From: Donghicola mangrovi
GTDB taxonomy: Bacteria; Pseudomonadota; Alphaproteobacteria; Rhodobacterales; Rhodobacteraceae
Direction: 5' to 3'
Assembly: GCF_013377535.1 (NCBI RefSeq)
Contig: NZ_JABCJE010000011.1
Location: forward strand, 62,001 to 126,000
DNA: 64,000 bases
The notes under the pieces were generated by a model, which had not been told where the DNA came from, ran no database searches, and worked only from the letters and a program-made list of their open reading frames with translations. A program made the translations under genes and the position numbers. This document shows, in pieces, positions 26,535 to 31,801 of this stretch. Positions within the stretch are counted from its first letter, which is position 1, and each line of letters starts with the position of its first letter.

Positions 26535-27779
26535 ATGAATGATCTTTTCAACAGCTTCATGACCGGACCCGATGAAAAAGGCCGTTTCGGCCAGTTCGGT
26601 GGACGCTTCGTGTCGGAAACGTTGATGCCGCTGATCCTCGAACTGGAGGCCCAGTACGAGCGTGCCAAAACCGATCCCGAATTCTGGGCCGAGATGGACT
26701 ATCTGTGGAAACACTATGTGGGCCGTCCGTCGCCCCTGTATTTCGCAGAGCGCCTGACCGAAGAGCTTGGCGGGGCCAAGGTGTACTTCAAGCGCGACGA
26801 GCTGAACCACACCGGCGCCCACAAGATCAACAACGTGCTGGGTCAGATCATTCTGGCGCGCCGCATGGGCAAGACCCGCATCATCGCGGAAACCGGTGCC
26901 GGCCAGCACGGCGTTGCGACCGCGACCGTTTGTGCGAAATTTGGTCTGAAATGCGTTGTTTATATGGGCGCGCACGACGTTGAGCGTCAGAAGCCCAACG
27001 TGTTCCGCATGCGCCTTCTGGGGGCTGACGTGATCCCCGTGACCAGCGGCCGTGGCACCCTGAAGGACGCCATGAACGATGCGCTGCGCGACTGGGTGAC
27101 CAACGTCAACGAGACCTTCTACTGCATCGGCACCGTGGCCGGTCCGCACCCCTATCCGGCGATGGTTCGCGACTTCCAGTCGATCATCGGCAAGGAAACC
27201 CGTGAACAGATCATGGAAGCCGAAGGCCGTCTGCCCGACACTCTGGTCGCGGCGATCGGTGGCGGTTCCAACGCGATGGGCCTGTTTTATCCGTTCCTCG
27301 ACGATGCCAGCGTGAACATCATCGGCGTCGAAGCGGGCGGCAAAGGCGTGGACGAGAAGATGGAGCACTGCGCGTCGCTGACCGGCGGTCGCCCCGGCGT
27401 GCTGCACGGCAACCGCACCTATCTGCTGCAGGACGAGGATGGCCAAATCCTTGAAGGGCATAGCATTTCGGCGGGTCTGGACTATCCGGGCATCGGGCCG
27501 GAGCACAGCTGGCTGCACGAAACCGGCCGCGCCAAATACGTGTCGATCACCGACAAAGAGGCGCTGGGCGCGTTCGAGCTGTCCTGCCGGACCGAGGGCA
27601 TTATCCCCGCGCTGGAGCCCTGCCACGCGCTGGCACATGTGGCCAAGATCGCACCGACCCTGCCCAAGGATCACCTGCTGGTCATGAACATGTGTGGCCG
27701 CGGCGACAAAGACATCTTTACCGTCGCACGCCATCTGGGTGTGAACATCGCCGGCTCCGAGGGCCGCGATCTGGGTTAA
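26535..27779 (+). CDS. trpB: tryptophan synthase beta chain
   Basis: A 414-residue PLP enzyme making tryptophan from indole and serine. The N terminus has [16 protein letters not shown]. The PLP lysine is Lys97 in [10 protein letters not shown], followed by the [12 protein letters not shown] loop and the phosphate loop GGGSNAMG. The C-terminal CGRGDKD motif is present. All features are those of the TrpB1 type that normally pairs with TrpA. A perfect terminator follows, so trpA must be transcribed elsewhere. Confidence 0.97.
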
Positions 27780-27831: not shown

Positions 27832-28058
27832 CGTTTCTGGCCTTGTAAAACAGGGGAATCCGGCTGCCATCTTCCGTATGGAGTACGTCTGGCTTCCGTC
27901 ATGACGTTCAAGGTGGACGCTATACCGCTGGTTTACGGGCGGTTACTGCCCGTTTGGTGGGCCGGTTTATACCCTGCGGCGCATTTTCGAGCGGGCCGGG
28001 GACGGGCAAGGGTCGATCCAACGCCGGAATTCCTCTGGCTGCATCGGGAGAGACCCAC

Positions 28059-28739
28059 ATGATCAAGACCTTTACCGTTCGCGCTGCATTGTTCGCAGCG
28101 ACCGCGACCTTGGGCGCACAGGCGCAGGCCCTGACCGTATCCGAGGCCATCACCGCAACCACCGACGCGGGCTATAGCGCCGTGGCGGTCCGCACCTCGC
28201 GCGATGGGACCGTGACGTCGGTTCTGGCGACCGACGGCACCAGCTACTACGAGATCGACTATGACACCGACACCGGCGAGGCGACCTCGACCACCGAGGT
28301 GACCCCGCGCAACAGCACCTTCGAAACCCTGTCCAGCGATGACGCCGCCGCCGCGATTGCCGCCGCCGAGGACGCAGGTCTGACCGTTGTGGGCATCCGC
28401 GAGACCGACAGCGGCGCAGAAGTGATCGCGACCGACGGCACCACCACCTATGAGGTCAGCTATGACAGCTCGACCGGCGAGACGACCACCACCGAAGCCA
28501 CCCGTGGCCACGGCAAGGGCGGCCGTCATGGTCACGACGATGATGACGACAGTACCACGTCGGATGACAGCAGCACGACCACGTCGGACGACAGCAGCGA
28601 CGATAGCTCGACCGATGACAGCAGCGACGATAGCTCTGACGATAGCTCGGACGACGACAGTGACAGCGACTCGGGTCACGACCATGGCGGCCGCGATGGC
28701 GGTGACCGCGAAGGTGGCCACGGCGGCGGTCGTCACTAA
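28059..28739 (+). CDS. secreted protein with two PepSY-like repeats and a Ser/Asp-rich, His/Gly-rich tail
   Basis: 226 residues from ATG 28059 behind GGGAGAG. A signal peptide (about 1-24, ending AQAQA) is followed by two similar modules at about 26-79 and 93-146. Both carry an Ala-Gly pair (TDAGYSAV / EDAGLTVV) and the shared strand ATDGT..YE(I/V).YD, which is PepSY-like. From residue 147 the chain is low-complexity: HGKGGRHGHD, many SDD/DDSS units, and a GHDHGGRDGG..HGGGRH end. Asp clusters and His-Gly runs suggest cation binding, which is inference. It is the first of three acidic secreted proteins ending at a membrane LuxR-type regulator. Confidence 0.75.
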   Translation: MIKTFTVRAALFAATATLGAQAQALTVSEAITATTDAGYSAVAVRTSRDGTVTSVLATDGTSYYEIDYDTDTGEATSTTEVTPRNSTFETLSSDDAAAAIAAAEDAGLTVVGIRETDSGAEVIATDGTTTYEVSYDSSTGETTTTEATRGHGKGGRHGHDDDDDSTTSDDSSTTTSDDSSDDSSTDDSSDDSSDDSSDDDSDSDSGHDHGGRDGGDREGGHGGGRH

Positions 28740-29009
28740 GGTCTGCGGACGGGCAGGGGGCGGATGGCTTGGTCATCGGGTCCCCCTGCAAACGGCCCAA
28801 GAAACGTTGGGGGTTCGGCGGGGTCATATACCTGAGGGCAGATAGGAATGTGGCACGGCTGCCTTAATTTCCGCTGTAAACCTGCGGTCTAATAGCGGCT
28901 AAGTGGCTGTTCTGGATGGGGTTTATGGGGGAAAGGCGGTTTACGGATCAGAGGCCAGCGGTCATCACCTGCAATGCTGAATATGTAATTTCAGCTAAAT
29001 TGGAGAGTA

Positions 29010-29441
29010 ATGATGACCAAGGTTTCGACCATCCGCGCCGCTCTGTTCGCTGCGGTTTCTGTATGTGCTGTTTCCGCTCAGGCGATGCCGATGAGCGTAG
29101 TTGTTGTGGCCTCTTCGGGCAGCTTTGGCGCGGCGCGTAGCATCGCGGACAAAGACGGCGCGGGGAAAACCGAAAGCACCAAACAGGGATGCTCGGGCTC
29201 GGGTGAGGCGAGTGCGACCACTGGAACGGACGCTTCGGACGACACCGCGACTGACGACAGCGCATCGGACGACACTGCTGCTTCGGATGAGACTGCGACC
29301 GACGACACCGCAACCGAAGAGACCACCGACGACACCAGCACCGAGGACACCACTTCGGACGACACCACCACCGAGGACACCTCTACCACCGACACGTCGG
29401 GCACGGGTATTTCCGTTGGTGGCGCGTTGACCGCGTCCTAA
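29010..29441 (+). CDS. small secreted Thr/Asp/Glu-rich low-complexity protein
   Basis: 143 residues starting at ATG 29010 or 29013 after TTGGAGAGT. A signal peptide (about 1-25, ending VSAQA) leads into a short hydrophobic stretch (MSVVVVASSGSF). A long disordered region of DDTAT, DETAT and EDTTS units from about residue 70 to 130 follows, then GTGISVGGALTAS at the end. There is no PepSY module. The signal peptide resembles that of the preceding protein (TIRAALFA versus TVRAALFA), which hints at duplication of the secretion leader. No function is recognised. It lies 270 bp after its upstream neighbour, in its own transcription context. Confidence 0.6.
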   Translation: MMTKVSTIRAALFAAVSVCAVSAQAMPMSVVVVASSGSFGAARSIADKDGAGKTESTKQGCSGSGEASATTGTDASDDTATDDSASDDTAASDETATDDTATEETTDDTSTEDTTSDDTTTEDTSTTDTSGTGISVGGALTAS

Positions 29442-29554
29442 GGTGGTGCGGGACCTGGGGGCTGGTCTTGTTATTTCACCGCTGCCATAGGCAGCAGCGT
29501 CCCCCGCGTGTATGATGCGGGGGGCACTTTGATCACCTGACCGGAATGGCTTTT

Positions 29555-30055
29555 ATGCGAACGCTTCTGAAAACTGTCTGTGTCTGCCTGTGCGCGGCGC
29601 TGCCGATGGCGGCCCATGCGCAATCGGTGAAGGACGAGATCATCGCCGATCTGGTCAAGGACGGGTACACCGAGATCACGGTCTCGCGGACTTTGCTGGG
29701 GCGGCTGCGGTTTATTGGCGTGGGGCAGAACGGCACCCGAGAGGTTGTCGTGCAGCCCAGCAACGGGGCCATTCTGCGCGACCACGTGGATGACGATGAT
29801 GACGAGCGGACCGCGCGGACCTCGGGCAATGATGATCGCGGCGGGTCGGGCAGCACGGCGGGTTCGGACGACAGTTCGGGATCGGGCGATAGTGGCTCGG
29901 CGTCCGATGACAGTGGCGGCGACGATGGCGGCAAGGATGACGGCCGTGATGAGGGCCACGGCGGCAAGGACGATGACAAAAGTGATGACAAAGACAATGA
30001 TCGCGGGAATGATCGGGATGACGGTCACGATAACGATCGTGGGAGGGACCGATGA
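29555..30055 (+). CDS. secreted PepSY-like protein with Asp/Lys/Arg-rich tail
   Basis: 166 residues from ATG 29555; an ATG at 29546 is the alternative. A signal peptide (about 1-23, ending AAHAQ) is followed by a single module at about 24-78: VKDEIIADLVKDGYTEITVSRTL, LRFIGVGQNGTREVVVQP and NGAILRDH. This has the helix-strand-strand pattern of PepSY-type domains. The rest is a charged disordered tail (DDDDDER, SDDSGGDDGGKDDGRDEGHGG, DKDNDRGNDRDD). Its last 4 bp overlap the start of the LuxR-type gene, so the two are translationally coupled, which points to a functional link. Confidence 0.7.
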   Translation: MRTLLKTVCVCLCAALPMAAHAQSVKDEIIADLVKDGYTEITVSRTLLGRLRFIGVGQNGTREVVVQPSNGAILRDHVDDDDDERTARTSGNDDRGGSGSTAGSDDSSGSGDSGSASDDSGGDDGGKDDGRDEGHGGKDDDKSDDKDNDRGNDRDDGHDNDRGRDR

Positions 30056-30591
30056 CCGAACGTAAAAAGGCGTTGCAGGTCGAGCGCGTGATCATGGTTT
30101 CAGTGATCGCGCTTCAGGCGTTTTGTGCCCTCATTTTCATTTGGGAAATTTTCGTTTCGGTTCTGGGACTGCCGTTCAATCTGGTCCCGTGGGGTCTGTT
30201 CGAGCTGGTGGAAATTGGGGCCGCCGTCGGATTGGGTCTGGGGATCGTGCTGGGCGGGATGGTGCTGCGCAACACCGCGCGCCGGGCCCAGCGGGCCGAG
30301 GAACGGCTGCGGGCGGCGTCCCGCGAATTTCTGGAACTGCTGGAAGAGCGGTTTGTGGATTGGGGGCTGACCCCCGCAGAGCGCGACGTGGCGCTGTTTG
30401 CCTTCAAGGGGCTGACGACCGCCGAGATTGCGGGGCTGCGCAACACCTCTGAAGGCACAGTCAAGGCGCAGACCGCCGCGATTTACCGCAAGGCGGGCGT
30501 GTCGGGCCGAGCGCAGCTAATGAGCGTGGTCATCGAGGACCTGCTGATGGACGAAACCCAGCCCAGCCCGTTCCGTCAGGCGGCGGAATAA
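30052..30591 (+). CDS. membrane-anchored LuxR-type (HTH) transcriptional regulator
   Basis: 179 residues. Two membrane helices lie at about 12-36 and 50-72, a charged probable coiled coil at 74-100, and then a LuxR/GerE helix-turn-helix at about 106-165. The HTH has LTPAERDVALFAFKG, LTTAEIAGLRNTSEGTVKAQ (recognition helix) and IYRKAGVSGRAQL. There is no receiver or autoinducer domain, so the signal must come through the membrane segment or a partner. The start overlaps the preceding PepSY-like gene (ATGA), making that secreted protein the obvious candidate input. The C-terminal 16 bp overlap the DUF2237 gene on the other strand. Confidence 0.82.
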   Translation: MTERKKALQVERVIMVSVIALQAFCALIFIWEIFVSVLGLPFNLVPWGLFELVEIGAAVGLGLGIVLGGMVLRNTARRAQRAEERLRAASREFLELLEERFVDWGLTPAERDVALFAFKGLTTAEIAGLRNTSEGTVKAQTAAIYRKAGVSGRAQLMSVVIEDLLMDETQPSPFRQAAE

Positions 30592-30950
30592 AGCTCTAGT
30601 ACTTCGATCGGGACGATTTCGAGGGCGCGCTGGTGGGTGGCCTCGAGGTCGACCAAGGGGGCGCAACCTTCGTCATGGGCCTGCAGGAAGCGGCTGGCGC
30701 AGAGGCACCATTTGTCCCCGTCCTTGAGCCCCGTGAACCCGAATTCGGGGCGGGGTGTGCTCAGGTCATTTCCCACATATTTCGAGAACGCCAGGAATTC
30801 GGCGGTCATCACGGCGCAGACCGTGTGGCTGCCCCTGTCCTGATCGCAGGTGTTGCAGGACCCGTCGCGGAAAAAGCCCGTCAGGGGCTTGGTCGAGCAG
30901 GGCCGTAGGGGGCCGCCGTTCACGTTCACAGAGGGGTCTTTGCGGATCAC
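30576..30950 (-). CDS. DUF2237 family protein
   Basis: 124 residues of the DUF2237 family, recognised by NVNGGPLRPCSTKPLTGFFRDG, CNTCDQDRGSHTVCAVMTAEFL, KYVGNDLSTPRPEFGF and GDKWCLCASRF. The conserved cysteines and the GDKWCLCA motif suggest metal binding or redox chemistry, but no function is established for the family. Single small cytoplasmic domain, no signal peptide. It is convergent with the LuxR-type gene and shares 16 bp with it. It is preceded on its strand by 62 bp after the pth stop. Confidence 0.88.
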   Translation of the reverse strand: MIRKDPSVNVNGGPLRPCSTKPLTGFFRDGSCNTCDQDRGSHTVCAVMTAEFLAFSKYVGNDLSTPRPEFGFTGLKDGDKWCLCASRFLQAHDEGCAPLVDLEATHQRALEIVPIEVLELYSAA

Positions 30951-31012: not shown

Positions 31013-31726
31013 TTAGCGGAACTTGTCCGCGAGCTTTTGTAGGGGCGAGCGGTTGTCCTCGGGCTCGGCCTGCGGGGCGGGGGCCTCGGGGCGCGGGGTA
31101 GGGGCCTGTTTGGGGCCTTTGCCCTGCGGGGCCTGACCGGTGCCGGTGCCGCTGCGGGGCGGGTTCACGCGCAAGGCCACAGCGTTCTGGAACTTGGCGT
31201 TGTCGCCGCGGGCCAGCGCGGGCGCGCCGTCCGAGATGCCGCGCATCATATCGTCGAGCCAGTCCTGTTCGGCCTTGGCAAAGTCGTTCAGTACATAGGA
31301 GGCGACTTTGTCCTTGTGACCGGGGTGGCCGATGCCCAGACGGACGCGGCCATAGTTTTCACCGATGTGCTGGTGGATCGAGCGCAGCCCGTTATGGCCC
31401 GCATGACCGCCGCCCTGTTTGACGCGCAGCTTGCCGGGGGCCAGATCCAGTTCGTCGTGGAACACGATCACGTCCTGCGGTTCCAGTTTGTAATAGCGCA
31501 TCGCCTCGCCCACGGACTGGCCGGAGAGGTTCATGAAGGTCTCGGGTTTCAGCAGGACGGCGCGGTCGCTGCCAAAGCGCCCTTCGGAGAGCTGGCCGCT
31601 GAAGCGCGATTTCCAGCCGGGAAAGCCGTGATCTTCGGCGATGCGATCCAGCGCCATGAAGCCGATGTTGTGACGGTTTCCGGCATATTTCGGACCGGGG
31701 TTTCCAAGACCGACAAAGAGAAGCAT
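31013..31726 (-). CDS. pth: peptidyl-tRNA hydrolase with C-terminal extension
   Basis: 237 residues from ATG 31726 behind AAAGG. Recycles peptidyl-tRNAs released from stalled ribosomes. The family core is clear: FVGLGNPGPKYAGNRHNIGF with catalytic His19, KPETFMNLSG, VFHDELDLAPGKLRVKQGGGHAGHNGLRS, and RLGIGHPG. Beyond about residue 190 there is an added Pro/Ala/Gln-rich tail ending SPLQKLADKFR, about 45 residues longer than enterobacterial Pth. It follows rplY after a terminator, a common pairing (rplY-pth). Confidence 0.95.
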   Translation of the reverse strand: MLLFVGLGNPGPKYAGNRHNIGFMALDRIAEDHGFPGWKSRFSGQLSEGRFGSDRAVLLKPETFMNLSGQSVGEAMRYYKLEPQDVIVFHDELDLAPGKLRVKQGGGHAGHNGLRSIHQHIGENYGRVRLGIGHPGHKDKVASYVLNDFAKAEQDWLDDMMRGISDGAPALARGDNAKFQNAVALRVNPPRSGTGTGQAPQGKGPKQAPTPRPEAPAPQAEPEDNRSPLQKLADKFR

Positions 31727-31801
31727 CGCGCGGGCCTTTCTGATCACTGCTGTTTCGGGGGCGTTATGCCCTTAGTGGCGTCCAAGCGCCACCCTGCAAC
31801 G

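Follow-up and report, generated by a model that had tools for sequence, protein, structure and literature searches.

A conserved operon of exported PepSY-like proteins and a membrane-anchored LuxR-type regulator in Donghicola mangrovi and its relatives

Introduction

PepSY proteins are common and mostly unexplained. In Vibrio cholerae, the small periplasmic PepSY protein DbfQ binds the sensory domain of DbfS and drives its phosphatase activity, and damage to the outer membrane activates the pathway (PMC12714742). In Pseudomonas aeruginosa, two PepSY genes precede that of the kinase BqsS, the second encoding a protein predicted to bind the kinase (PMC12714742), and BqsS senses Fe2+ (PMC12666569). 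Here we analyse a locus of Donghicola mangrovi at positions 28059-30591 of a 64,000-nucleotide stretch of its genome (contig NZ_JABCJE010000011.1, positions 62,001 to 126,000, forward strand; hereafter the window), in which the genes of three exported proteins, P0001 to P0003, are followed by that of a membrane-anchored LuxR-type regulator, P0004. P0001 occupies what we call the A slot, and P0003 is the B protein.

DbfQRS resembles this locus in that a small periplasmic PepSY protein is encoded directly upstream of the membrane signalling protein that it controls, and PA2659-PA2658-BqsRS resembles A plus B, with two PepSY genes of which the second lies beside the sensor. In these two systems the receiver consists of a histidine kinase and its response regulator, whereas in the window one protein with two transmembrane (TM) helices carries the DNA-binding domain itself. 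Neither a kinase nor a receiver is found among the four genes at 28059-30591, which therefore do not have the composition of DbfQRS. Neither 'acidic' nor 'LuxR' occurs in the main text of PMC12714742. A reading of this DNA made earlier from the sequence alone had stated that no system of this composition was described; the part of the open-licence PMC literature that was searched gave no description of an operon of PepSY and membrane LuxR genes either, although the kinase system DbfQRS is a close analogue (PMC12714742). PepSY-gated control with a histidine kinase as the receiver is thus already known (PMC12714742). The novelty, in our judgement, is that a one-component LuxR protein in the membrane would be the receiver of the PepSY-gated signal, with an operator that is likely shared and with exported partners that can be exchanged.

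ToxR/ToxS and TcpP/TcpH also combine a membrane-anchored DNA-binding domain with a separate periplasmic partner, as here, and differ in their OmpR-type winged-helix helix-turn-helix (HTH) and larger periplasmic domain. Among PepSY proteins, UipA reportedly binds U and Fe. LanPepSY is a periplasmic protein with two PepSY domains, as in P0001, and binds lanthanides (PMC12482762). By analogy with these two metal-binding proteins, those of the window may bind metals as well; unlike here, a membrane LuxR regulator is not described with them in the excerpts at hand. The SHP-DHC-cytochrome b operons combine a cytochrome b and a diheme cytochrome c with a periplasmic accessory protein (Orf1) and a sensor (PMC2909971). 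They are similar in that the present regulator family is also found beside cytochrome b561 or DHC, and different in that they have a sensor kinase and response regulator, whereas the operon of the window has no cytochrome (PMC2909971).

The locus would extend the control logic of PepSY proteins and kinases to one-component regulators, and it names a candidate operator of 18-20 bp. To our knowledge, few dedicated regulators are known for extracytoplasmic calcium. In the relatives, a constant regulator family is combined with tandem PepSY, a single PepSY, an EF-hand protein, cytochrome b561 or no partner at all. This natural series of exchanges makes the question of what a PepSY domain reports testable in marine bacteria and bears on extracytoplasmic calcium sensing.

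Results and Discussion

The four-gene locus and its regulator

All four genes lie on the + strand. P0001 (28059-28739) has 226 residues with a signal peptide (by eye), two PepSY-like modules encoded at about 28128-28301 and 28332-28499 (+) according to the AlphaFold2 model, and an acidic tail rich in Asp, Ser, Gly and His. P0002 (29010/29013-29441; 143/142 residues) is an exported Asp/Thr/Ser-rich protein, its signal peptide recognised by eye, with no domain recognisable by Pfam; the start at 29013 has the better Shine-Dalgarno spacing (by eye), and the related locus L004 encodes a P0002-like protein (also by eye). P0003 (29555-30055) has 166 residues with a signal peptide (by eye), one PepSY-fold module (about 29621-29800, +) and an acidic tail, and its stop codon overlaps the start of P0004 (30052-30591; 179 residues, two TM helices, LuxR/GerE HTH) by 4 bp in the sequence ATGA. 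The open reading frame (ORF) coordinates and the ATGA confirm the four-gene observation at 28059-30591, namely three consecutive exported proteins and then a regulator joined to the third by a 4-bp overlap.

The GerE/LuxR HTH of P0004 scores 31.2 bits in Pfam against a cut-off of 23.5. Hydrophobic windows of 19 residues cover about residues 10-46 and 48-73 with basic residues flanking both sides, and we read the predicted topology as two helices with a short periplasmic loop near residues 37-47 (by eye), followed by a helical linker. The N-terminus is hydrophobic and no receiver domain is among the Pfam matches; an autoinducer-binding or other ligand domain is likewise absent from its five Pfam matches at E<=1, on which ground a quorum-sensing LuxR identity was rejected. 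Pfam and hydrophobicity thus agree with the sequence-only reading, which had described two membrane helices and a LuxR HTH without a receiver or ligand domain. A related named family is the LIC13292 family of transcriptional regulators (NCBIfam NF047608). All 46 regulators in our alignment A2 match this model at E<=1e-10 (best 5.1e-18), whereas P0004 itself scores 59.4 bits, under the cut-off of 200, and is covered at residues 84-168 only.

Conservation of the B-regulator pair

P0004 was used to scan 84,980 species genomes, which yielded 65 loci, all in Rhodobacteraceae, Rhodobacterales or groups assigned only more broadly. B adjoins the regulator in 61 of them; of the four exceptions, L031 has no partner, L064 has PepSY-cytochrome b561, and L065 and L066 end at a contig edge. 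A single-PepSY A gene was recognised in 31 of the 65, and in L050, L060 and L062 it lies downstream of the matched regulator, where it begins a second copy. The gene upstream, which we take to be trpB from its sequence rather than from a family search, is present in 49 of the 65 loci (tblastn on the locus stretch), on the other side in L017 and as a fragment only in L043. Other neighbours, presumably DUF2237-like, trpF, pth and rplY, recur in 40, 36, 25 and 19 loci, respectively. Tandem double operons with the order B2-regulator2-A-B-regulator were seen in L015, L019, L036 and L048, with a downstream type in L050, L060 and L062; the tails of B2 in the tandem double operons look mostly neutral.

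To describe wider samples, we distinguish type I operons (PepSY-cytochrome b561-regulator), type II operons (PepSY-A/B) and type III, a set of eight operons. In a family sample of 248 genomes, one per genus, the B profile matches 110 (E<=1e-5). The regulator profile matches 146 (E<=1e-20), type I regulators included, and detection of type I with A2 is partly by construction since A2 contains the type I regulator of D. mangrovi itself (L001). In a class sample of 289 genomes, six have B (E<=0.001) and 16 the regulator (E<=1e-15); three and twelve of these, respectively, lie outside the family. A phylum sample of 150 gave the regulator in six, one outside the family.

The pairing counts cover the matches listed, for B down to 1e-11 and for the regulator all. 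Among them, 106 of 110 B matches (E<=1e-16) are followed within 1.5 kb by a regulator on the same strand, and closer inspection found a regulator match beside B in three of the remaining four. Conversely, B precedes 100 of 105 regulators (E<=2.1e-60), and one of the other five (L127) proved on closer inspection to have a B match. Weaker regulators without B number 35, and those examined comprise 30 together with the copy in the D. mangrovi genome. Some DNA is shared between the samples (L142/L042, L155/L008 and L156/L048), and L129 is the same as L031. The gene order is thus kept in relatives, contrary to the outcome that the sequence-only reading had named as refuting it, in the form of the B-regulator pair and the trpB neighbourhood, and the locus is almost certainly a conserved functional unit.

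PepSY assignment and predicted structures

P0001 stays under the Pfam cut-offs for PepSY_2 (PF13670; 19.7 against 24.3) and PepSY (PF03413; 18.3 against 24), and P0003 has no Pfam match. In the alignments of relatives, 27 of 50 B members (best 6.9e-7) and 15 of 29 A members match PepSY_2 at E<=0.1. Only through these matches is the PepSY assignment of the sub-threshold window proteins secure. Profile-profile comparison points the same way, the A and B profiles aligning in hhalign at 95.4% with an E-value of 1.7e-8.

AlphaFold2 with family alignments models P0003 as one alpha-beta4 module (a helix and four strands) with a predicted local distance difference test score (pLDDT) of 94, and P0001 as two such modules with a pLDDT of 91. 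Within a chosen list of PDB families, which leaves others open, the P0001 model resembles 4exr (Z 8.2, 123 aligned residues, 3.5 Å) and the siderophore reductase FoxB (7abw; Z 9.3, 119 aligned, 3.4 Å) and only weakly UipA (Z 3.9); the P0003 model gives 4exr 6.3, YpmB 5.7 and YpeB 5.5, and an unrelated chain scores higher at 7.4. Foldseek against the PDB returned no match at E<=1e-3 for either model. We describe the modelled fold of the modules in P0001 and P0003 as PepSY-like. The earlier assignment of PepSY-like modules to two proteins therefore holds for P0001 and P0003, with the correction that P0001 has two. The export route seems to vary among B proteins: 21 of 52 start with a Tat-like RR-x-[FLVM] (L006, L009, L039, L045 and others), and the remaining ones have a plain Sec-like signal.

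A candidate operator upstream of the operon

In relatives, the operon is preceded by the palindrome GCATAAAC-N4-GTTTATGC. Palindrome-constrained discovery in 34 regions upstream of A genes returned gCaTAAAC....GTTTATGc with a log-likelihood (LL) of 245.3, compared with 27.5 and 25.5 for shuffles. The best site reaches at least 17 bits in 23 of the 34 training regions, where its distance to the A match start ranges from 118 to 252 bp (118-150 bp in 15 of them), and in 14 of 23 loci outside the training set. Canonical sites include those of L009 (Frigidibacter oleivorans, 28.9 bits) and L034 (Thetidibacter halocola, 29.6 bits). Over the 65 loci, the 17-bit threshold gives 47 sites in 150,534 upstream bases versus 6 in 522,088 other bases; three of these six precede the upstream tandem copy (L019, L036 and L048) and two the downstream copy (L050 and L062). 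A second element, roughly CCTAAACC...GGCCAATG, was noticed about 20-70 bp downstream of the palindrome in L044, L049, L057, L067 and others. The motif returned for the regions upstream of B consisted of GAC repeats only and was discarded because these were taken as the coding tail of A.

Among the 248 genomes, the exact 18-bp core occurs at 16 sites in 15 genomes and the reversed control at none; as the palindrome was derived from an operon family that this sample also covers, its presence at operons is partly by construction, whereas its rarity elsewhere is not. Fifteen of the 16 cores have a regulator 646-1668 bp downstream. The other (L147 1501-1518; G040:C5:44723) lies off the operon, upstream of an RTX protein gene (HemolysinCabind, 205 bits). 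In 30 genomes picked for strong regulators or sites, six one-mismatch sites lie off the operon, which is the chance level (five control matches in the same 30). Only one of the six looks related (L166 1473-1490; G061:C137); it lies 66 bp ahead of a Ser/Asp-rich protein that carries a Tat-like signal. A wide regulon acting through the canonical site was rejected, since exact and one-mismatch sites are mostly at the operon; degenerate sites would escape this search.

The other operon types gave a mixed result. Discovery in 25 type I operons, the own-genome copy included, yielded a TAAAC....GGTT core at a similar distance (LL 107.1 against 26.6 and 26.7), these sequences having also trained the model that scores their sites. 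The type III motif (eight sequences; 35.0 against 21.4 and 23.1 for shuffles) is little above the control and is not used as evidence.

In the window, weak degenerate copies lie upstream of P0001 at 27920-27936 (CTATACCGCTGGTTTAC; position weight matrix score 5.7 bits), the right half of which is conserved in L003, and upstream of P0002 at 28876-28892 (GTAAACCTGCGGTCTAA; 4.8 bits), each with a spacer one base longer than the canonical one. The sequence-only reading had the regulator control the exported-protein genes. For the relatives, where the candidate site is found almost only at the operon, the sequences support this well; for the window it is weakened by the degeneracy of the site. Judged from the DNA, autoregulation through the palindrome is very probable in relatives; it is also probable in D. 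mangrovi, with less confidence because only degenerate copies are present there.

Alternative partners of the regulator

D. mangrovi carries a second member of the regulator family in a type I operon (G000:C4:38883-40233; L001, L092), formed by an 82-residue PepSY_2 protein (51.1 bits against a cut-off of 24.3), a cytochrome b561 (PF01292) and a regulator 34% identical to P0004. Beside this copy is a repeat protein of RTX-like appearance (by eye; L001 2056-3189, minus strand). The type I PepSY proteins have no long tail (25 of 25). A third set (L105, L115, L118-L121, L124 and L125) has a short PepSY protein, mostly with a D-rich end, directly before the regulator. In L086, DHC and DUF1924 c-type cytochromes (Pfam) precede the regulator instead of PepSY, and L087 looks the same by eye.

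EF-hand proteins take the same place in other relatives. In L130 (G062), beside trpB, the PepSY protein is replaced directly before the regulator by a secreted protein with two EF-hand loops and a D-rich tail (Pfam EF-hand_6, 17.2 bits, under the cut-off of 25). A search with its N-terminal part, a query taken from this operon itself, gave 16 matches in the 248 genomes, of which three lie inside the operon in three genera, all with D-rich tails: G062 as the query source, and G199 (L172/L180) and G152 (L177/L181), where the EF-hand protein occupies the A slot. EF-hand_6 exceeds its cut-off in G152 (28.6 against 25), and the G199 protein has no Pfam match. Small secreted proteins of unknown kind are the partners in L131 and L097.

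The palindrome is kept upstream of several of these variants (L130, 23.6; L131, 23.8; L124, 18.0; L180, 15.2; L181, 15.4 bits) and was not found before L097, L086 or L087. In a FastTree phylogeny of 118 regulators, some of them duplicates, those with variant partners group within the clade that holds most PepSY-A/B regulators (66 tips, support 0.56), with ten type II tips outside it, including the window, L003 and L004. From this placement, it seems that the partners changed and the regulator was kept, the branch support being low.

Proposed mechanism

On balance we lean towards reading the locus as an autoregulated, PepSY-gated, one-component envelope-signalling operon. The regulator has almost no periplasmic part of its own, and an exported partner is encoded immediately before it. 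The periplasmic PepSY module of B would contact the membrane part of the regulator and set its activity, as DbfQ does for DbfS; that B gates the regulator directly seems to us slightly better than an even chance. The HTH of the regulator would bind the palindrome and tune how much of the exported proteins is made, so that a loop is closed. The A-slot proteins (PepSY, EF-hand or a domain-less acidic chain) and the tails may bind an envelope ligand, most likely a metal cation with Ca2+ first, and act as a buffer or as the input.

Several observations weigh against this reading. The exact core is present in only 15 of the 248 genomes although B matches 110, so most operons carry variants of it, and allowing one mismatch still leaves nine of the 30 genomes selected for strong regulators or sites with no copy. 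The palindrome is degenerate in the window and in L003 (5-6 bits), and a search of the D. mangrovi genome for the degenerate form, with a pattern composed after viewing the window sequence, gave 9 sites versus 8 in the control. The type I discovery finds no site in L082 and L084, and the type II matrix reaches 17 bits in just two of the 25 type I operons and one of the eight type III operons. In L031 (the same record as L129) the regulator stands without any partner. As to the tails, 15 of 54 B tails have 10-20% Asp plus Glu (D+E) and 4 have less than 10%; at the threshold chosen, 21 of 58 loci, including L031 and L064, have no strongly acidic tail. No operon among the 65 loci has an EF-hand protein detectable with a loop pattern. 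Finally, type I operons combine a PepSY protein without a long tail and a heme protein, which for these operons at least points to redox or heme as the input.

The input signal

For the input, we consider metals (calcium first) and general envelope stress about equally likely, and redox or heme less likely here and likelier for type I. A metal cation as the input is plausible and is a tentative assignment. The A-slot proteins and tails would bind Ca2+ or another divalent cation (or lanthanides), and B with the regulator would read their loading and adjust production; this sensor-buffer version is possible rather than probable. The tails of P0001, P0002 and P0003 have 80, 82 and 90 residues with 26, 23 and 32 D+E, respectively. 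Over 54 B tails, the window included, the median length is 70 residues and the mean D+E content 32%, with 35 at 20% or more, and 31 A tails average 44%. Of the 58 loci with enough upstream sequence, 37 encode one or more strongly acidic tails, compared with 3 of 1636 background frames, and that PepSY proteins can bind metals is exemplified by LanPepSY (PMC12482762). Sensing of a cation or of the envelope state is favoured by the finding that in three genera (G062, G199 and G152) the operon carries an EF-hand protein with a D-rich tail where others have a PepSY protein. Within the operons of the 65 loci, the loop pattern picks out only the A tail of L016, with two EF-like loops; outside them it matches 13 ORFs. 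The sole off-operon exact palindrome in the 248 genomes precedes an RTX protein gene, but it is a single site and could be chance.

The operons without a strongly acidic tail argue against a cation, as does the lack of operon EF-hand proteins in the 65 loci beyond the loops of L016, and the window proteins themselves have only D-rich tails, P0001-P0003 giving no EF-hand or RTX Pfam match at E<=1. Acidic tails are common, not obligatory. Other tails are Gly/Ser-rich, Gly/Pro-rich (L041, L063) or mixed, a range that weakens the simple equation of an acid tail with a cation sensor. A more specific and more doubtful proposal is that the locus represents a new metal-sensing one-component class, in which a sensor-less membrane LuxR protein would read, through B, the metal loading of exchangeable exported binders (tandem PepSY, EF-hand or polyaspartate chains). 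It would control essentially one promoter in a homeostatic loop for periplasmic Ca2+ (or lanthanides), and might derive from the PepSY-cytochrome b561 redox version.

An input from other envelope stress is somewhat unlikely when taken by itself. Here B would repress or activate in the manner of DbfQ and be set free by damage to the outer membrane or by cationic peptides, and the acidic exported chains would be decoys or fillers that bind such peptides; we regard the two parts together as somewhat unlikely too. DbfQRS responds to lipopolysaccharide defects, polymyxin B and thymol (PMC12714742), and polyanionic, interchangeable chains of low complexity fit charge neutralisation without specific folding. 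However, the recurrent neighbours tested (trpB, trpF, DUF2237-like, pth and rplY) are housekeeping genes, and no stress regulon is visible because the canonical site is almost exclusively at the operon.

Less probable still for the window is a redox, heme or iron input. As an explanation of the locus as a whole, in which the PepSY-cytochrome b561 type would have passed on such an input and the acidic proteins would have been added later, it is equally improbable. The regulator family occurs with PepSY and cytochrome b561 in the D. mangrovi genome and in other alphaproteobacterial families, and with c-type cytochromes in L086 and L087, and the P0001 model resembles FoxB. Against this, Pfam finds no heme protein among the four window genes, and CxxCH is absent from 59 B proteins, 31 A proteins and P0001-P0003. 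Chance proximity of low-complexity secreted proteins and an unrelated regulator, for which the simple-sequence tails and the small size of the proteins might speak, is very remote and is refuted by the conservation of pairing, position and DNA site across many genera, which likewise led us to reject chance ORFs or a low-complexity artefact.

Flanking genes and minor features of the window

The locus lies between the presumed trpB (26535-27779, + strand), which was traced by tblastn in related loci, and, on the regulator side, the DUF2237-like gene (30576-30950, - strand), with pth beyond it (31013-31747, - strand). A promoter and terminator scan of the window gave three promoter-like and four terminator-like matches, which were not used as evidence. 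Between P0002 and P0003, a GC-rich inverted repeat, CCCCCGC...GCGGGGG, was noticed by eye at 29501-29524.

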